Below, piece by piece: positions 20,838 to 57,517 of a DNA stretch of 64,000 bases; position 1 is the stretch's first letter, and the number at the start of each line of letters is the position of its first letter. The DNA is taken from NCBI RefSeq assembly GCF_017352095.1, contig NZ_CP071463.1:1736001-1800000 (forward strand), in the 5' to 3' direction. The DNA is from Natrinema longum. Its GTDB lineage: Archaea > Halobacteriota > Halobacteria > Halobacteriales > Natrialbaceae. Both the position numbers and the translations under genes were made by a program. The notes below the pieces were generated by a model. That model was not told the origin of the DNA. It did no database searches and saw only the letters and a list, made by a program, of their open reading frames with translations.

Positions 20838-20938
20838 CTCTCGAGGAACGCGGCGGCGGGCAACGTCTTGTTTCGGGACGCTATCAGCTGCTGCAACGGT
20901 GTGTGAACTATTTGTAGTATGGTATGGTCAGCCTACGC

Positions 20939-22003
20939 ATGCGCGCAGCAGTTCTCGAGGAACACGGCGAACCGCTCTCGATCGACGATGTCGACGCACC
21001 CGAGCCGACACCGAACGGTGCGGTCGTCGACGTCGAAGCCTGTGGCGTCTGCCGGAGCGACTGGCACGGCTGGCAGGGCGACTGGGGGTGGCTCGGTCTG
21101 GAGACCCAGCCGGGTCAGATTCTCGGCCACGAGCCCGCCGGACGCGTCGTCGCCGTCGGTGAGGAAGTAGAAGGGATTGCCGAGGGCGATCACGTCGCAG
21201 TACCGTTCAACCTCGGCGACGGGGTCTGCCCGCAGTGCCGGCGGGGCCACTCGAACACCTGCGAGAACGTGATGCCGCTGGGATTCATCGAGGAGGTACA
21301 GGGTGCCTTCGCCGAGCAACTCCACGTCCCCGTCGCCGATCACAACCTCGTGAAACTCCCCGACGGCGTCTCGTCGGTCGACATGGCCGGACTCGGCTGT
21401 CGCTTCATGACGTCGTTTCACGCGCTGGCCCATCGCGCTGACGTCGGTGCTGGCGACTGGGTGGCGATCCACGGCTGCGGGGGCGTCGGCCTCTCGGCGG
21501 TCCACATCGCCGACGCGCTGGGAGGCAACGTCGTCGCGGTCGATCTGAAAGACGAAAAACTCGAGAAGGCCGAAGAGCTCGGTGCCGTCGAGACGGTCAA
21601 CGCCGAGGAGATCGACGACGTTCCCGGCGAGGTCCAGGCGATCACGAACGGTGGGGCCGGCATCGCGATGGACGCGCTCGGGATCGAAACCACCAGTCAG
21701 AACTCCGTGCTGAGCCTCGGCACCCGCGGCCAGCACATCCAGGTCGGGCTCACGACCCAGGACGAACAGGGGATGGTCCACCTGCCGACCGACGCGATGG
21801 TCATGCAAGAGATCGAGTTCATCGGCTCGCTGGGAATGCCCCCGACCCGCTACGACGAGATCTTCCGCATGGTCGCGACCGGCAAACTCGAGCCCGAAGC
21901 CGTCGTCTCGGAGACGATCGGCCTCGAGGACGTCAGCGACAAACTCGAGGCGATGACCGACTTCGAGACGGTCGGCATTCCGGTCATCGACACGTTCAAC
22001 TGA
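20939..22003 (+). CDS. adh: Zinc-dependent alcohol dehydrogenase family protein
   Basis: 354 residues, medium-chain dehydrogenase/reductase. Catalytic zinc ligands: Cys in C-G-V-C-R-S-D-W-H, His/Glu in G-H-E-P-A-G, and C in G-L-G-C-R-F-M. The structural-zinc lobe has only three cysteines (V-C-P-Q-C-R-R-G-H-S-N-T-C) where the family usually has four, so this site may be absent or use another ligand. The NAD(P) Rossmann motif G-C-G-G-V-G-L is near residue 180, followed by an Asp (V-A-V-D), which favours NAD over NADP. Several in-frame ATGs exist; 20939 gives the normal M-R-A-A-V-L start. A long hairpin array follows the stop directly. Confidence 0.85.
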   Translation: MRAAVLEEHGEPLSIDDVDAPEPTPNGAVVDVEACGVCRSDWHGWQGDWGWLGLETQPGQILGHEPAGRVVAVGEEVEGIAEGDHVAVPFNLGDGVCPQCRRGHSNTCENVMPLGFIEEVQGAFAEQLHVPVADHNLVKLPDGVSSVDMAGLGCRFMTSFHALAHRADVGAGDWVAIHGCGGVGLSAVHIADALGGNVVAVDLKDEKLEKAEELGAVETVNAEEIDDVPGEVQAITNGGAGIAMDALGIETTSQNSVLSLGTRGQHIQVGLTTQDEQGMVHLPTDAMVMQEIEFIGSLGMPPTRYDEIFRMVATGKLEPEAVVSETIGLEDVSDKLEAMTDFETVGIPVIDTFN

Positions 22004-22378
22004 ATTTTGCTCTGTCGTTCGAGAGAGTTCCGCTCTCTCGTGACTGAGCGAATCGAAGCTAAGCGGGAGCGAAGCTCCCGCGAGGTCAGCGGGATGGATA
22101 TCCCGCCAGAATTCGCGAGGTCGTCGGCGCTTCGCGCCGACTGATCGAGGGACCGGAGGTCCCTCGTTGTCCGCGAAACCTTCGGTTTCGCTTGATGACG
22201 AAAGGCGCGGAGCGCCTTTCGAACCACGGGCGCGGCGAAGCCGCGCCCTCGGCAAAATTTAGTATAAAAGCACCGGAAGACGCTTCGCGTCTTCCGAGCT
22301 CTCGTTCACTTCGTTCACGAGAACACTCCTCCTTCTCGCTCGCGCTGCTCGCTCACATCAGTCGTCGGCCCGCTCGCT
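22004..22378 (+). repeat. Hairpin array A: chain of perfect hairpins with 3-nt loops
   Basis: Directly behind the adh stop begins ATTTTGCTCTG, then a chain of perfect hairpins, stem-loop-stem: 22063-22081 (8-3-8, loop GAA), 22123-22141 (8-3-8, TTC), 22146-22166 (9-3-9, GGA), 22173-22191 (8-3-8, TTC), 22199-22221 (10-3-10, GGA), 22228-22248 (9-3-9, GAA) and 22275-22295 (9-3-9, TTC); 22089-22106 is 7-4-7 and 22020-22040 is 8 bp with a wobble. GCAAAAT at 22252-22258 mirrors the opening ATTTTGC. There is no coding potential. A related array lies in inverted orientation at 52030-52387. Confidence 0.85.
22266..22378 (+). repeat. 113-bp core shared by hairpin arrays A and B
   Basis: Runs from AAAAGCACC to CCGCTCGCT and includes the 22275-22295 hairpin and the direct repeat GTTCAC-TTC-GTTCAC. 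It matches the reverse complement of 52112-52224 at 109 of 113 positions; three of the four differences are the hairpin loop (TTC here, GAA there), the fourth a C/T change. Confidence 0.9.
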
Positions 22379-22479
22379 CCCTGACTCGCGGCGCTTCGCG
22401 TCGCGCATCCGGTTGCTCGCGGATGCCAGCGGTGACGCCCCCTCCTGTGGTCGAGTGCAAGTAGTTGTACCGAGCGCGA

Positions 22480-22612
22480 GCGGTGCGAGGGCTGAGCGAA
22501 GCGAAGCCCTCGGAAAAGCGAACGGGGAGGGACGACCCGTGAGCGAAGCGACGCGCTCGGCCTTTTTTAATCGAATTTTTTTGCTCGAGCGGTCGGCCGG
22601 AGGCCGACCCGA
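22480..22612 (-). repeat. Hairpin block A2 behind the DUF5789-like gene
   Basis: On the minus strand this follows the stop of the gene at 22631-22918. It contains a perfect 8-3-8 hairpin (22591-22609, GGTCGGCC/GGCCGACC, loop GGA) and a longer one with 8-bp stems (CGAGGGCT/AGCCCTCG, about 22487-22514), plus T/A runs at 22563-22568, 22576-22582 and 22617-22622 that could terminate both converging transcripts. It shares style, not sequence, with array A. Confidence 0.6.
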
Positions 22613-22630
22613 GAGTAAAAAACTTCGTTC

Positions 22631-22918
22631 CTAGAAGGAAACCGCGTCGGGCGAGTAGGGACTGCCGACCGGGGTCGGGTCGCGGTCGCTGTAGCCGACG
22701 CGGCCGATGGCCTTGTCGCTGACGGCGGAGTAGACGGCAAAGCGTGCGTCTTCTGCGGTTTCGAAGGTTTCGGACTCGAGGCGGGCGAGTACATCGCCGA
22801 CCGTCTCGGACCCGTTGGGGAGTTCGAGGGTACGGTCCCCGTGGTCGTCGATCAGTTCCTCGGTCGTGGCGGGGTACTCGTAGTCGTCGATGACGTCGCC
22901 GGTGCCGTTGAGCAGCAT
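22631..22918 (-). CDS. Small haloarchaeal protein, DUF5789/DUF2795-like
   Basis: 95 residues: M-L-L-N-G-T-G-D-V-I-D-D-Y-E-Y-P-A-T-T-E, then a conserved-looking E-L-P-N-G-S-E-T-V-G-D-V-L and V-Y-S-A-V-S-D-K-A-I-G-R-V-G-Y-S-D-R-D-P. This resembles from memory a small haloarchaeal family with a winged-helix-like fold; the family label is uncertain. Start 22918 is chosen because a GGAGG lies about 10 nt upstream and a TATA-like T-T-T-A-T-A-A-T-T about 35 bp upstream; the frame continues 12 codons further without support. Function unknown. Confidence 0.7.
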   Translation of the reverse strand: MLLNGTGDVIDDYEYPATTEELIDDHGDRTLELPNGSETVGDVLARLESETFETAEDARFAVYSAVSDKAIGRVGYSDRDPTPVGSPYSPDAVSF

Positions 22919-22969
22919 TACACCTGGTCCTCCGTGAACGATAATTATAAACATTGTCCATCTATGTTT

Positions 22970-51938: not shown

Positions 51939-52029
51939 ATCTCTCCGCTCTCGTCTCAGTTTCTACTCGGCCGAGAGCACGGCTCGAGCAACGCGAGAGC
52001 CGTGTGACCCGGGGAAGGGCAGGCCCTTG
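51939..52029. other. Intergenic segment between hydrolase and hairpin array B
   Basis: A hairpin with stem CACGGCTC/GAGCCGTG (about 51978-52004) may end the hydrolase transcript. Nothing else recognised. Confidence 0.4.
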
Positions 52030-52387
52030 CCAGGTATCGACCGCGAGCGAAGCCGTGCGCGGCGCTACGCGCCGCGAGAAGTCGAACGGCCGAAGGCCGT
52101 GCGACCGGCTGAGCGAGCGGGCCGACGACTGATGTGAGCGAGCAGCGCGAGCGAGAAGGAGGAGTGTTCTCGTGAACGAAGTGAACGAGAACTCGGAAGA
52201 CGCTTCGCGTCTTCCGGTGCTTTTGATCGAAACTGAGCGGGATCGAAGATCCCGCGAGGTCGGCGGCGCGAAGCGCCGCCTGCTCGAGGGACCTCCGGTC
52301 CCTCGCTGTCCAAAAGAGCGCTACGCGCTCTTTTGAAGATTTTGCCGAGCGCGGTCGCATCGCGACCGCACGCAGAGCAAAATTTCG
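52030..52387 (-). repeat. Hairpin array B, inverted relative of array A, behind the PolD gene
   Basis: On the minus strand it follows the polD2 stop at once, with ATTTTGCTCTG four bases after the TAA. Perfect hairpins (plus-strand coordinates): 52058-52076 (8-3-8, loop TAC), 52086-52100 (6-3-6, GAA), 52201-region core hairpin (9-3-9), 52237-52255 (8-3-8, GAA), 52262-52280 (8-3-8, GAA), 52285-52305 (9-3-9, TCC), 52311-52335 (11-3-11, TAC), 52351-52369 (8-3-8, ATC). Most stems differ in sequence from those of array A while pairing stays perfect; the 52285-52305 hairpin is shared with 22146-22166. Confidence 0.85.
52112..52224 (-). repeat. 113-bp core, second copy
   Basis: Reverse complement matches 22266-22378 at 109 of 113 positions. 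The hairpin loop reads GAA instead of TTC in the same orientation, that is, inverted; one further C/T difference. Confidence 0.9.
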
Positions 52388-55300
52388 TTACATGAAATCC
52401 TCGATCCCGCTTTGCTTGTTCTTGTCGTTTTCGAAGATACTCTCGAGGGAGCGCTCGAGGACTTCCAAGCGTTGTTTCGTGTAATCGCGGCAGTCGTACT
52501 CCTCGGCGACCTGGATGGCCGTCTGCATGTACTTGTTCACGGACCCTTTGTGGACGGTCAGATTGACTCGCCCGCCGCATTCCCGACAGTCGCCGGTCAG
52601 GGGCATCCGGCGGAACTTCTCGCCGCAGTCGAGACAGCGGGTCTCCTGTCGGGAGAACGCCCGGAGGTTCCCGATGAGGTCCGGCAGGAAGTGATACTCG
52701 ATGACTCGCTCGGCGACGTCGGTCTCGTCGACCGCCTCGAGCTTGCGCGAGAGCTCGAGCTGGGCGTCCATCTTGTCCATCATCGACCCCAGCGTCTTGT
52801 ACGCCGAGAGGTCGGGGCCCATCGCGATGTCGGTGGTGTCGTGGGTGTGGTCGAAGCCGGTGTACTCGAGGTCGGTGCCGAGGTTCTCTTCGGCGATTTC
52901 GACGTCGACGTCCTCGGGATCGGCCTGCTCGCGGGTCGCGAGGTAGAACTCGCGGGGATACTGCGAGACGACGTCCATATTGTGGGCCTCGTCGTCGATC
53001 TCGGAGGGATCGATCCGGGAGGACATCACCAGCGGTGCGTCCATCTTCCCGCCGCGCTGGTCCGGCAGGAACGTCTTGCTGAAGTTGAGCAAGCCGTCGA
53101 GGAGGAGCATGACGCAGTCCTCGTCGCCGTCGCACTGACCGACGTACAGATCGTTGGCAACCAGTGTATTCGTCTCCTCGACAGTGAGACAGTAGGTGTA
53201 TTCGATGTCACTCTCGACGATTTCGACGGAAACGACTTCGTCGAGCCACGTATCGCCGCCGTCAGCGAAAAGGCGCTGCGAGCGGAGTTCGGTCGTCTCG
53301 AGGACGTTGGTGATCGTCTCCTGTTTCCGTTCAAGATGGAACCCGATACGTTCAGCGAACCGAGCGGCGTTCTCGGACGTGATCTTGAGAATCCACGATC
53401 CGAATTCGGGGACTAGTTCGTCGTCACCGTAGAACTCAGCAACGGCTCCGGTGGACGGACGCCGCCTTTCGCGATAGGTTTTCGCTGCGATACCGAAACG
53501 TTTCAACGCAGCAACGAGGTCAGTGGCGAGTTCGTCACTGATCGTGTGTGCTCGAACCTCGATTCGTTCGCTCGACGTACTCCCGTCTCCGCTGAAGTAC
53601 GCGGCCAAGAACGCGCGCAGCTGGGAGCGAGAGCTATCGAGAACGGAATCCGGAATCCGCTTCGTTTCCGCGGTCGCACCGAGGTCGAGCACGTCGGCGA
53701 ACAGCGCTGAGACGAGACGGCTCGAGACGGTTACCTTCCACTCGTTCTCTTCGAACGCGTCGATCGAGAGTGCGTCGGTGAACGCATCGATGATGTCGTC
53801 TCGAGCCGCTCTGTCGGGCGTACAGATCGTCGTCTGATAGAACGATCCGCCTTCACGACGAGTGAAACCTTCGGAAGCGTAGTATCCGAGCAGCGTCGCG
53901 ACGGAATCGTCGATCTCGAACTGTCGTTCGACGGCTGCGGTGTCGCGTTTCATCCCGAGGGTAACGTCGTCCGGAATGCGGTCACGTAGTTCCGCAGCGT
54001 CGAAGAAAGCGAGAAGCGGACCGACTGGAACACTGTCTCGGCTGACCCAGTTGTAGACCGTCGACTGAGAAACTTCCAGTCGTTCCGCAACGGGTTTGAG
54101 ATACGCCTGATTCGGCGTTGCGTCGTCGAGTAAATCCTTGATTTGTTCGGAGCCCAGCCCGCGGATAACGAGCGAGTCGTTCGGAATGGCATCCGCCTCG
54201 AGAAACGCTTTCAGTAGATCGATCGATTTCGTCGTCCCCTCGAAGTCGATCGATTTCGGACTCGGGAGTTCGTCGCCAGCCGAAAGTTCGCGAGCGTCGA
54301 CGGACTCCAAGCCTGTCGGCGTCCATCGACGGAACGTGTGATCCTGAGTTACGGTTAGCGTTCGACCACTCCGTGTTTCGACCCGAACGAGATGATCGGG
54401 GGCCGGATGTTTCGAAACGGTTTCAACGGACCGTTCGACGGGCGTTCCATCGGCAGTGACTGATGGGACGCTGAGTCCGTCGACGTCCTGAACGAGCGTT
54501 CCGAAATCGTCTTCTTCGGGATCAGTCAAGCGCTCTTCGACGATCGTTTCGATCGATTCGTAACCCCATTCACCGTTGTGGTTCTGGGACCAGAGTTTCG
54601 TCTCTGGATGGAAGCAGTTCCGTCGTTTAGCCGCATGAAAGTACGGATGAGCGTACCCAACCGCGGCGCTCGTGAAACCAATCACTCTCCCGACAGTTGC
54701 GGCAGAGGTGTGGGGTGCCATCCCGAAGACGAGTTCGCCGACCAGGTCCTGGCGGTCCTCGAACTCATAAAAGGACTCGAGCCCGTAGTACTGCTCCAAG
54801 AGGTCGTCGATGAAGTCGGCCGTCTGGAGCATGTGCTCGGCCGCACCGTCGGAGAGGACGATGTCCTGGACTTTGAGTTCGACCAGCTGGTCCTCGTGGG
54901 TCAGCGGTTCGCCGTGGATATCCTCCTCGTAGCCCAGCGCCTGGATCTGGCCGACGTCGACGTCGAGTTCGCTGGCCCGGACCGAGGTCACGGGGAGGTC
55001 GGTCATGTCGTAGCGGACGGTGCCGTCCTTGAACGCGGAGACGTCGTGTTTGGCCCGCAGGATTCCCTTCTCGATGGGTTCGGGGACCTTGTTCTGCGAG
55101 GACAGCCCCTTGACGCCCTTGAGGATCTCGAAGGCGTTCTCGCGTTCGCCGACCGACTCGAGGGCGCTGCGGAACTCGTCGTTGACGTCGATCTCGCGGG
55201 TCTCGACGCAGGTGCCCTCGCGCTCGCAGTGGTCGCACTCGACGCGGCCGGCCTCGTCGGGCTCGAGCCGCTGGTCGCAGTCGGGACAGCGGTAGTCCGG

Positions 55301-57517
55301 CGTGGTGCGGTCGTCGCAGTCCGGACAGCGGTTCTTGAACGTCTCGGTGCCGCAGCTGTCACAGCGCTGGCGGCCGACCTCGAGTTCGACGACGCCGGGG
55401 GTGTCGGACATCGTCTCGGCGTGTTTGGCGGCGTCGGCGACGTTGCGCTGCGTGCCGCCGGCTTCGCCGATCGGGAACAGCGTGTGGACCGCCGGGCTCA
55501 GATCGCGGCTCTCCGATTTCTCCGGCCGGCCCATGCGGTTGCCGATCCGCGTCGGCGCGCGCTCGCGGACCCGGAACGGCGCGACCTCGGTGACCGCCTC
55601 GATGGCGTTGTCGCCTTCGGTCTCGTGACCCCACGTGCGGGCGCGCTCGGAGAGGTCGCCGTCGCTCCAGGTGCGCTCGAGTTCGATTTCGGGACGCTGG
55701 TCGGGCTCGAGCGCCGCGCCGTCGGCGACGGCCTGCCGGGGCTCGCAGCCGACCGAGCGGACGAACGGCCGCCAGTCGTCGATCTCGATGCGGTCGTCGT
55801 CGGGACGCTGGCGGTGTTCGATGACGATCGTCTCGAGGGCGTCGGCGACGGCGTCGTCGGACGCGAGGACGAGGATGCTGTCGTCCCCGTTCCCGTTCAC
55901 GCTGCCGTCGCCGTCGCGTTCGACCCGGCCCTCGGCGACCGCCGCCGCGAGGTCGCAGAAGGCGTCGACGGAGAGATCGTGCCAGAGGTAGGTATACTCG
56001 GGATGGAGGGGGGCGTCGTACTCGACGGCCCACTCGACGGCCTCCTCGGGGTCGGGGAACTCGAGGTCGATCCGGGGGTCGTCCTCGAGGGCTTGTACGT
56101 CCACGCCGGCGGCCTCGAGATCCTGCACCCACCACTCGTAGGTGTAGGAGGCGGGCGCGAGCGGGTGGTTGTTCTCGACGAACTCGCCGTAGTTGACCAG
56201 GTACTCGCCGAGATCGAGGATCGCCTCGACGCCGTTTCTGATCTCGAGGGCGTCCTCGGGGTCGTCGATCCGGCGGACGTCGCCGTTTGCCAGTTTGACC
56301 GTCGGCCCCTCGATGGAGTCGACGGGGACGACGCCGGCGGCCTTGCCGGGGCGTTCGGTCTTGATCTGGGTGCCGGTCGCGAGGAAGTCGTCGACCAGGT
56401 GCATCGCGGCGGGGTGGACGCCGGCGGTCGCGAAGCCGTGATTGCGTGCGCGACCGTAGCGCAGCCGAAAGCCACCGTGGGCACAGGGATGGGAGAAGAC
56501 CGGCCGGCCGGCGATCAGGTCCCGGAGGAACTTCTCGGAGGTGTCGACGCGGGGCGGTCCCTCGGATTCGTCAGTGGCGGAGTCGTCGTCGGCCTCCGCA
56601 TCGGCGTCGCTCTCGGCCGCCTCTGCCTCGTCAGCGTCGCCATCGGATCCGTCGTCGCCGGTCTCCCCCTCGTCGTCGGAGTAGTTGCCGTCGATGAGGT
56701 CCTGGAGCCACGGCCAGTCGACCTCGTCCAGGTTCCGGGTGTAGCGCTGGATCTTCGGGGCCTTCAGCGCGATCCCCTCCCCGAGGACGAGACACATCCC
56801 GCCGCGGGCGCTGTTGGTGTCGACCCGCTCCAAGTCACGGAAGCCCGAGACCTCCTCGTCGCCGGTGGCCTCCCCGTCCAACATGATCGGGAGGTGTTTG
56901 GCGATGAATTTCGCCTCCTTGGCTTTCGGCGTGTACTGGAGGCCGGTCTCCTTGTCGTAGAGGGCGATCTCCTCGGCGTAGCGTTCGACCTCCTCACCGC
57001 GGGCGTTGTACTGTTCGATCCCGACGAGCGCGCGCGTGTAGTCGGCCACGAGTACGGAGAGGGCCTGTGCGGTCCCGCCGGCCGAGCGGATCGGGCCGGC
57101 ATAATAGACGTTGACGAACTCCGTCCCGTCGTCGTTCTCGAGGATCTCGACCTTGTCGATCCCCTCGATGGGTGCGGCGACGACGCCCTCGGTCAGCAGG
57201 GCGACCGCCGTGCGGACGGCACCTTCGACCTTGCCCGCTTTCGTCTCGTAGTCGCCGACGCGCCCCTCGGCGAAGTCCTCCGCGAGTTCGAGGGCCGCCT
57301 CTTCCCTGCTCATCTGGCCTTCGAGTTCGCGGACCCGCTCGGCGACGCCGTCGATCCCCAGAATGTTCTCGACGCGGTCGGCCATGTCCTTGGCGACCGG
57401 AATCTCGACCGCCGGTTTGGGATCCCCACCCCGTGCTTTGGCCCGTTGGGCGACGTCGAAGGCCTCGTCGAGTTGCGCCTCGAGCCCCTCGAAGTACTGT
57501 TCGTCTTCCGGGCGCAT
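52388..57517 (-). CDS. polD2: DNA polymerase D large subunit (DP2) with an intein
   Basis: 1709 residues; 1215 after removal of a 494-residue intein (968-1461). DP2 is the catalytic subunit of the archaeal replicative polymerase PolD. Visible: N-terminal DP2 domain, V-N-V-Y-Y-A-G-P-I-R-S-A-G-G-T-A-Q-A, an acidic insertion (about 280-325), zinc-finger cluster (about 720-760: C-D-S-C, C-P-D-C, C-P-D-C, C-D-H-C), the catalytic stretch H-A-A-K-R-R-N then, after the intein, C-D-G-D-E-D-C, the C-terminal C-L-D-C/C-R-E-C zinc site, and a final Q-S-G-I-E-D-F-M that fits a PCNA-binding PIP box. The next minus-strand gene upstream is the PPC protein, 1 bp away. Confidence 0.96.
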   Translation of the reverse strand: MRPEDEQYFEGLEAQLDEAFDVAQRAKARGGDPKPAVEIPVAKDMADRVENILGIDGVAERVRELEGQMSREEAALELAEDFAEGRVGDYETKAGKVEGAVRTAVALLTEGVVAAPIEGIDKVEILENDDGTEFVNVYYAGPIRSAGGTAQALSVLVADYTRALVGIEQYNARGEEVERYAEEIALYDKETGLQYTPKAKEAKFIAKHLPIMLDGEATGDEEVSGFRDLERVDTNSARGGMCLVLGEGIALKAPKIQRYTRNLDEVDWPWLQDLIDGNYSDDEGETGDDGSDGDADEAEAAESDADAEADDDSATDESEGPPRVDTSEKFLRDLIAGRPVFSHPCAHGGFRLRYGRARNHGFATAGVHPAAMHLVDDFLATGTQIKTERPGKAAGVVPVDSIEGPTVKLANGDVRRIDDPEDALEIRNGVEAILDLGEYLVNYGEFVENNHPLAPASYTYEWWVQDLEAAGVDVQALEDDPRIDLEFPDPEEAVEWAVEYDAPLHPEYTYLWHDLSVDAFCDLAAAVAEGRVERDGDGSVNGNGDDSILVLASDDAVADALETIVIEHRQRPDDDRIEIDDWRPFVRSVGCEPRQAVADGAALEPDQRPEIELERTWSDGDLSERARTWGHETEGDNAIEAVTEVAPFRVRERAPTRIGNRMGRPEKSESRDLSPAVHTLFPIGEAGGTQRNVADAAKHAETMSDTPGVVELEVGRQRCDSCGTETFKNRCPDCDDRTTPDYRCPDCDQRLEPDEAGRVECDHCEREGTCVETREIDVNDEFRSALESVGERENAFEILKGVKGLSSQNKVPEPIEKGILRAKHDVSAFKDGTVRYDMTDLPVTSVRASELDVDVGQIQALGYEEDIHGEPLTHEDQLVELKVQDIVLSDGAAEHMLQTADFIDDLLEQYYGLESFYEFEDRQDLVGELVFGMAPHTSAATVGRVIGFTSAAVGYAHPYFHAAKRRNCFHPETKLWSQNHNGEWGYESIETIVEERLTDPEEDDFGTLVQDVDGLSVPSVTADGTPVERSVETVSKHPAPDHLVRVETRSGRTLTVTQDHTFRRWTPTGLESVDARELSAGDELPSPKSIDFEGTTKSIDLLKAFLEADAIPNDSLVIRGLGSEQIKDLLDDATPNQAYLKPVAERLEVSQSTVYNWVSRDSVPVGPLLAFFDAAELRDRIPDDVTLGMKRDTAAVERQFEIDDSVATLLGYYASEGFTRREGGSFYQTTICTPDRAARDDIIDAFTDALSIDAFEENEWKVTVSSRLVSALFADVLDLGATAETKRIPDSVLDSSRSQLRAFLAAYFSGDGSTSSERIEVRAHTISDELATDLVAALKRFGIAAKTYRERRRPSTGAVAEFYGDDELVPEFGSWILKITSENAARFAERIGFHLERKQETITNVLETTELRSQRLFADGGDTWLDEVVSVEIVESDIEYTYCLTVEETNTLVANDLYVGQCDGDEDCVMLLLDGLLNFSKTFLPDQRGGKMDAPLVMSSRIDPSEIDDEAHNMDVVSQYPREFYLATREQADPEDVDVEIAEENLGTDLEYTGFDHTHDTTDIAMGPDLSAYKTLGSMMDKMDAQLELSRKLEAVDETDVAERVIEYHFLPDLIGNLRAFSRQETRCLDCGEKFRRMPLTGDCRECGGRVNLTVHKGSVNKYMQTAIQVAEEYDCRDYTKQRLEVLERSLESIFENDKNKQSGIEDFM
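53135..54616 (-). other. Intein in PolD large subunit, LAGLIDADG endonuclease type, ending in Gln
   Basis: 494 codons inserted at K-R-R-N/C-D-G-D-E-D, the known pol-c site. It begins C-F-H-P-E-T-K-L-W (block A), has T-V-T-Q-D-H-T-F (block B), two LAGLIDADG-like helices L-L-G-Y-Y-A-S-E-G and L-R-A-F-L-A-A-Y-F-S-G-D-G, an extra helix-turn-helix (R-L-E-V-S-Q-S-T-V-Y-N-W, about 179-190), and ends L-Y-V-G-Q before Cys+1. The last residue is Gln, not Asn, and the penultimate His is Gly, as reported for the Pyrococcus abyssi PolII intein. Confidence 0.92.

Follow-up and report, generated by a model that had tools for sequence, protein, structure and literature searches.

What is the hairpin array that lies behind two unrelated genes of one haloarchaeal chromosome, and what keeps it there? 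In a 64,000-nucleotide window of Natrinema longum (positions 1,736,001 to 1,800,000 of a 3.59-Mb, single-contig chromosome), array A follows adh on the plus strand and array B follows polD2 on the minus strand (Table 1). The initial annotation held that the array travels independently of its genes and inserts at, or is retained at, stop codons. The placement it described was confirmed: array A abuts the adh TGA (stop 22001-22003), and array B starts at the base right after the polD2 TAA (stop 52388-52390). The shared core was likewise upheld, at 114 bp: inverted repeat I1 pairs the two copies at 96% identity (E about 1e-48 within the chromosome, which rules out a chance origin). The four mismatches comprise one substitution and a 3-nt loop flip (TTC in A, GAA in B); with the array B hairpin flipped in the comparison, only one difference remains across 114 nt.

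Outside the core, the similarity is looser than first described. The parts follow the same order only loosely, since the extra hairpins of array A are enclosed by helix 1, with ATTTTGCTCTG on one side and the pairing CTCGGCAAAAT on the other, whereas those of array B come after a closed helix 1 and form an inserted module that is shorter or missing in relatives. Array B had also been ended too early, at 52030; a conserved fourth module (GCCTGCCC..CTCTCGGCC) extends it to about 51969. When folded, the two arrays are far more stable than shuffled controls (z = −6.6 and −7.3). Each occupies a convergent gap (adh and a DUF5789 gene for A; polD2 and an alpha-beta hydrolase gene for B), so these two copies alone cannot assign the element to a gene; the wider survey below does. 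Facing array A, a variant element with TTTTTT and AAAAAAGG (also AAAAAAGGCCGAGCG) recurs in relatives and is matched weakly by our family model R1, described below (22565-22627, minus strand, 16.8 bits, E = 0.004). polD2 itself reads as 1,709 amino acids with an intein-like insert (CFHPETKLW..VVANDLYVGQC); its frame is about 1,240 codons long in most members of the genus and about 1,750 also in genomes G001, G014, and G026, so the insert comes and goes.

Table 1. Positions of the two arrays, their parts, and neighboring genes (window numbering)
Feature	Position	Strand	Basis
adh, zinc-type alcohol dehydrogenase, host gene of array A	20924-22003	+	
Array A, element behind adh; multi-hairpin module nested in helix 1	22004-22440 (end approximate)	+	
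Core of array A	22266-22379	+	
Second element, facing array A, directly behind the DUF5789 gene TAG	22520-22630	−	R1 match; same variant in relatives
DUF5789 gene, host of facing element; ends with TAG	22631-22954	−	
Array B, complete stop-anchored element behind polD2	51969-52387 (51969, far end, approximate)	−	Sequence; R1 matches; genus comparison
Array B, fourth module GCCTGCCCTTCCCCGGGTC-[stem]-CTCTCGGCC	51969-52024	−	48 family copies compared
Array B, variable hairpin module, closed by GCTCGCGG	52041-52110	−	Sequence
Array B, 114-bp core common to array A	52111-52224	−	
Core part: conserved 26-mer CACATCAGTCGTCGGCCCGCTCGCTC	52111-52136	−	
Core part: CACTCCTCC		−	
Core part: flipped hairpin	52194-52216	−	
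Array B, four perfect hairpins as an optional insert from helix 1 to TTCGATCAAAAGCAC	52232-52338	−	
The four perfect hairpins of the inserted module	52311-52335, 52285-52305, 52262-52280, 52237-52255	−	
Array B, helix 1: CGAAATTTTGC..GCAAAAT, inner stem GCGGTCGC-GAT-GCGACCGC	52339-52387	−	Sequence; family covariation of helix 1
polD2, DNA polymerase D large subunit, host gene of array B	52388-57517	−	In-frame insert read as intein

Arrays A and B proved to be two members of a family spread over the Halobacteriales. Of the 29 genomes of the genus, 28 contain the core, and a 26-base piece of it matched 47 loci in named genomes, every one from a genus placed in the Natrialbaceae (Natrinema, Haloterrigena, Natronorubrum, Natronococcus, Natronolimnohabitans, Natronoglomus, Halovivax, Halobiforma, and Halopiger). 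From 24 of these 47 loci we built R1, a covariance model whose E values are rough and for which part of the training set was reused in testing; loci outside the family Natrialbaceae were not in training. R1 matched array B at 52111-52230 (51 bits) and 52337-52385 (32.9 bits). Across this chromosome it matched 19 places at E below 0.005, among them second matches on one element, opposite-strand shadows, and fragments; we put the copy number at about 20. Across the order, R1 matched at least 93 of 146 sampled genomes and at least 34 of 56 genera, and in 120 genomes sampled from the phylum all matches, among the candidates scored, fell within the order. In all counts given here, paralogous and related copies are nonindependent observations. 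The element matched no Rfam family at gathering score and nothing in the phage collection searched, and plasmids yielded only short partial matches on six replicons (Natrinema, Haloterrigena, Natronorubrum, and Halomontanus). Open-access papers on haloarchaeal intergenic palindromes contained no description of it that we could find. This is a multi-hairpin, directional element of haloarchaea that is absent from Rfam and, as far as those papers go, undescribed.

Comparison of the copies gave a common anatomy. After the stop codon and 0 to 6 nt comes helix 1 (CGAAATTTTGC..GCAAAATTTCG or covarying versions) around a variable inner stem, then ATNAAAAGCACTCCTCCTTC, a variable segment that is often a hairpin, CACATCAGTCGTCGGCCCGCTCGCTC, a small hairpin, and GCTCGCGG; the 3′ part is often GCCTGCCCTCCCCCGRGTC-[stem]-CTCCCGGCC. 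The linkers (ATNAAAAGCACTCCTCC.., GTCGTCGGCCCGCTCGCTC, and GCCTGCCCTCCCCC..) are conserved, and in the stems the pairing is conserved and the sequence is not: 48 copies of the fourth module carry 32 different stem arms, nearly all Watson-Crick paired. Further hairpin modules enter at fixed joints, which gives A and B their array-like appearance. The 5′ arm of helix 1 holds a T4 to T6 tract, and nearly all aligned copies have T3 to T6 within about 12 nt of the stop, a feature of archaeal T-tract ends, compared with only about 0.16 T4 tracts per gene in the first 24 nt elsewhere. Several variants were observed. A second subclass (loci L117, L115, L124, and L153) has AAAAGCCTGCGTCACC instead of AAAAGCACTCCTCC behind helix 1; beyond CAAAAGCACTC, the tbsP copy of this genome (L185) ends in another hairpin type (CCGACCTTTTTCCGCTCGGG..) that looks like a module swap; and two loci behind a KH gene (L217 and L218) carry a different, duplicated hairpin repeat (GGTCCAGCTTTTTGGCGGGCC..GGCCCGCGAAAAAGGTGGG), perhaps a sister element type.

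We examined the position of the element relative to genes, using our own calls from a simple codon-usage caller without annotation. Among 44 loci with two flanking genes, drawn from the 47 Natrialbaceae loci, 42 had the element on the strand of the upstream gene reading into it (26 in convergent and 16 in tandem gaps), against an expectation of about 0.47 under random intergenic placement (P about 5e-12). Of 71 full-length copies, 66 had a same-strand gene end nearby and 64 started between −2 and +6 nt from its stop; elsewhere in the order, beyond the Natrialbaceae, 17 of 22 started within −3 to +4 nt. Retention at the stop codons of unrelated genes, in sense orientation, as initially proposed, is thus what the family displays, and the other copies are random in neither orientation nor position. 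Apart from the known elements, stop-anchored inverted repeats in general were only weakly above shuffles (61 versus 27 of 275 genes, an excess made up mostly of those elements), so not every gene has such a repeat. Two elements face each other, one per gene, in 11 of 40 convergent gaps, and array A too has a facing partner. Between a KH gene and an apparent rps12 (L214, L215, and L304 to L313), two facing elements bracket the intergenic region, and the second abuts the promoter region of rps12.

By Pfam matches, the host genes are mostly housekeeping genes. They include polD2, thermosome, L10e, S19e, PAN ATPase, gyrB (gyrase B), topA (topoisomerase I), and RadA, as well as SUI1, EF1-beta, KH/NusA-like, SAM synthetase, ETF, TrkH, TbsP, and Lrp-like genes. 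The link to stop codons, although it holds for most copies, is not essential. In Natrinema versiforme, an element (L110, 2335-2778, minus strand) lies directly 3′ of the SRP (7S) RNA gene, about 10 nt behind it (Archaea_SRP, 189 bits), and the same arrangement was seen at L246, L250, and L251; most Natrialbaceae SRP genes are without it. Since the element follows SRP RNA as well as coding genes, it marks the ends of transcription units rather than translation stops as such. At 30 RNase P RNA loci, no element was seen directly behind the gene; of two matches, one lay on the other side and one was unplaced. Three exceptional copies abut a divergent, promoter-like region rather than a gene end. 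An association of exceptional copies with tRNA genes was considered and none was found; one exception was the SRP RNA.

The stems preserve a record of how they change. Across 24 elements, 20 of 30 pairs had two-sided, compensatory changes, and the covariation score was 0.246, compared with 0.070 for shuffles and 0.02 to 0.04 for slid structures. Such changes are those of a conserved structured element, be it RNA or single-stranded DNA. At variable pairs, G-U was scarce and A-C no less frequent (9 and 21, respectively), and predicted helix 1 folds contained 86 G-U pairs on the sense strand versus 29 on the antisense strand; these counts do not clearly indicate selection at the RNA level. Double changes in the stems include many transversion types, and among loops of 3 nt, 45 have the form GNA or TNC, with both orientations represented. 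Stem changes nearly free of wobble pairs, together with flipped loops, suggest arm copying at the DNA level: one arm would be recopied from the other by template switching, leaving the arms complementary and the loop inverted, a process that few G-U pairs, transversions, and loops in both orientations would fit. Helix 1 also holds a conserved C.C mismatch, so at that position selection would override arm copying.

Sites were also compared among relatives. The polD2 site is occupied in 24 of 29 genomes of the genus and the adh site in 15 of 22; at tbsP, a full or a degraded element survives in roughly two thirds of the 30 Natrialbaceae genomes read, and behind the NusA-like KH gene the element is present in 12 of 13 genomes of one genus and was not found in the other genera looked at. 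Element sites are old yet show turnover. One close loss resembles a deletion between short direct repeats, and orthologous sites otherwise gave partial or deleted forms, with no clean insertion or precise insertion footprint among them. Independent travel therefore stands only in part: losses and lineage-specific gains occur, but occupancy across most of the genus, and at tbsP across the family, does not bear out insertion as first read, and A and B are not fresh insertions. In this genome (G000), the polD2 and adh cores are 0.94 alike, compared with 0.71 and 0.68 for their best orthologs, which argues for recent exchange between the sites; copies within one genome, such as A and B, may swap sequence. 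The near identity of A and B is better explained by ectopic conversion between old sites than by fresh insertion. In G025 (L076), the whole adh-DUF5789 intergenic block is inverted, and recombination between its two facing elements is a plausible cause; the position rule survives, since the element then comes immediately after the opposite gene's stop.

We consider it probable, from these sequence patterns, that the element functions in 3′-end formation (termination plus a stable end). It would define the 3′ ends of transcripts: the T tract, helix 1, and the pyrimidine-rich linkers would be where RNA polymerase halts or the transcript is cut, so that a hairpin caps the end, and later hairpin modules could catch read-through. 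This reading is favored by the orientation, stop proximity, SRP RNA copies, covariation, housekeeping hosts, facing pairs, the G025 inversion, and the A/B identity. In Haloferax, T stretches are known terminators (T5C is 95% efficient), and 503 TTS have hairpins upstream (PMC7237163). The element shares with these a T tract and hairpin behind haloarchaeal genes; the Haloferax terminators (PMC7237163), however, are without long conserved modular sequence, whereas the T tract of the element lies in the 5′ arm of a helix at the stop. What follows the hairpin on the sense strand is ATCAAAAGC, with no T run, and helix 1 is followed by ATNAAAAGC; with the T run in the 5′ arm rather than directly behind a hairpin, this is not a classical intrinsic terminator. 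A plain terminator would also fit poorly with an element carried by only about 20 genes of the chromosome, though all genes need 3′ ends, and with 200 nt of conserved sequence that a terminator does not need. The lineage-specific turnover, the few copies that lie at a divergent promoter and not at a gene end, and the G-U counts, with their lack of a clear sign of RNA-level selection, weigh against 3′-end formation itself.

Many of the same data bear on a semimobile, REP/BIME-like repeat, retained only at 3′ ends, where it does no harm, with a secondary function or none. The element's many paralogs, its mosaic of modules on conserved linkers, its gains and losses in particular lineages, and the exchange of sequence between copies would all suit it; we nevertheless regard it as unlikely, because harmless insertion predicts scattered distances and both orientations, in place of the fixed ones seen, and because hosts and sites persist across genera, the palindromes have no common sequence, and no precise insertion footprint was found. 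Quite improbable, in our judgment, is a regulatory or stability RNA in the 3′ untranslated region (UTR), with polymerase reading through and a protein or ribosome binding unpaired, pyrimidine-rich segments. Its strengths are the conserved unpaired linkers, in which CUCCUCC resembles the 16S anti-Shine-Dalgarno end, a sense strand unstructured between hairpins, an antisense fold that is more stable in all 71 copies, and a median 3′ UTR in Haloferax of 97 nt (PMC7237163), which would take in helix 1. The hosts, however, show no bias toward one pathway, and the element also follows the untranslated SRP RNA. A freely travelling insertion element, newly arrived at polD2 and adh here, would account for A and B being more alike than their orthologs, and we hold it to be very improbable: occupancy across most of the genus already contradicts it, and the exact A/B match stops inside longer, different elements at both sites. 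Almost no credence is left for a compositional artifact; at 65% GC, short hairpins are frequent by chance, but covariation relative to slid controls, clusters of hairpins with 3-nt loops, and the fixed distance from the stop already contradict it.

Known repeats offer partial likenesses. The REP/BIME elements of enterobacteria are found mostly 3′ of genes, in many extragenic copies whose palindromic units form mosaics held together by linkers. The Halobacteriales element is likewise a linker-joined mosaic of multicopy extragenic palindromes; unlike REP/BIME, its stems vary and covary so that only the linkers are conserved, its orientation and stop distance are fixed, and the family spans an order. 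Small inversions between perfect arms are found in plastid hairpin loops downstream of genes, and the loop flips reported here are similar, occurring in a repeated, modular archaeal family. The PATE, SMR, and MITE repeats of Haloquadratum are noncoding and haloarchaeal as well, and carry palindromes or terminal inverted repeats (PMC3119063). Insertions of those can be strain specific and are often into other mobile elements (PMC3119063), whereas the present element, rather than occupying many positions in either orientation, is fixed to gene ends in one orientation across genera. Bacterial hairpin-cluster terminators also place several hairpins behind a stop codon; the abstract on them mentions neither conserved linkers nor family-wide modules (PMC8355165).

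As a tentative and still doubtful synthesis, the family may be an order-wide, dedicated 3′-boundary element for mostly housekeeping units (coding and, in some genomes, SRP RNA), (i) with exchangeable hairpin cassettes set on conserved joints, (ii) with arms that would evolve by arm copying and loop flipping without wobble intermediates, and (iii) with facing pairs that perhaps insulate neighbors. Its stems are a natural record of palindromes being rewritten, apparently at the DNA level, with arms that change together and loops that invert. How transcripts end at key archaeal genes is still being worked out, and here a defined, testable object lies 3′ of polD2, ribosomal, chaperonin, proteasome, and gyrase genes and, in some genomes, of the SRP RNA.
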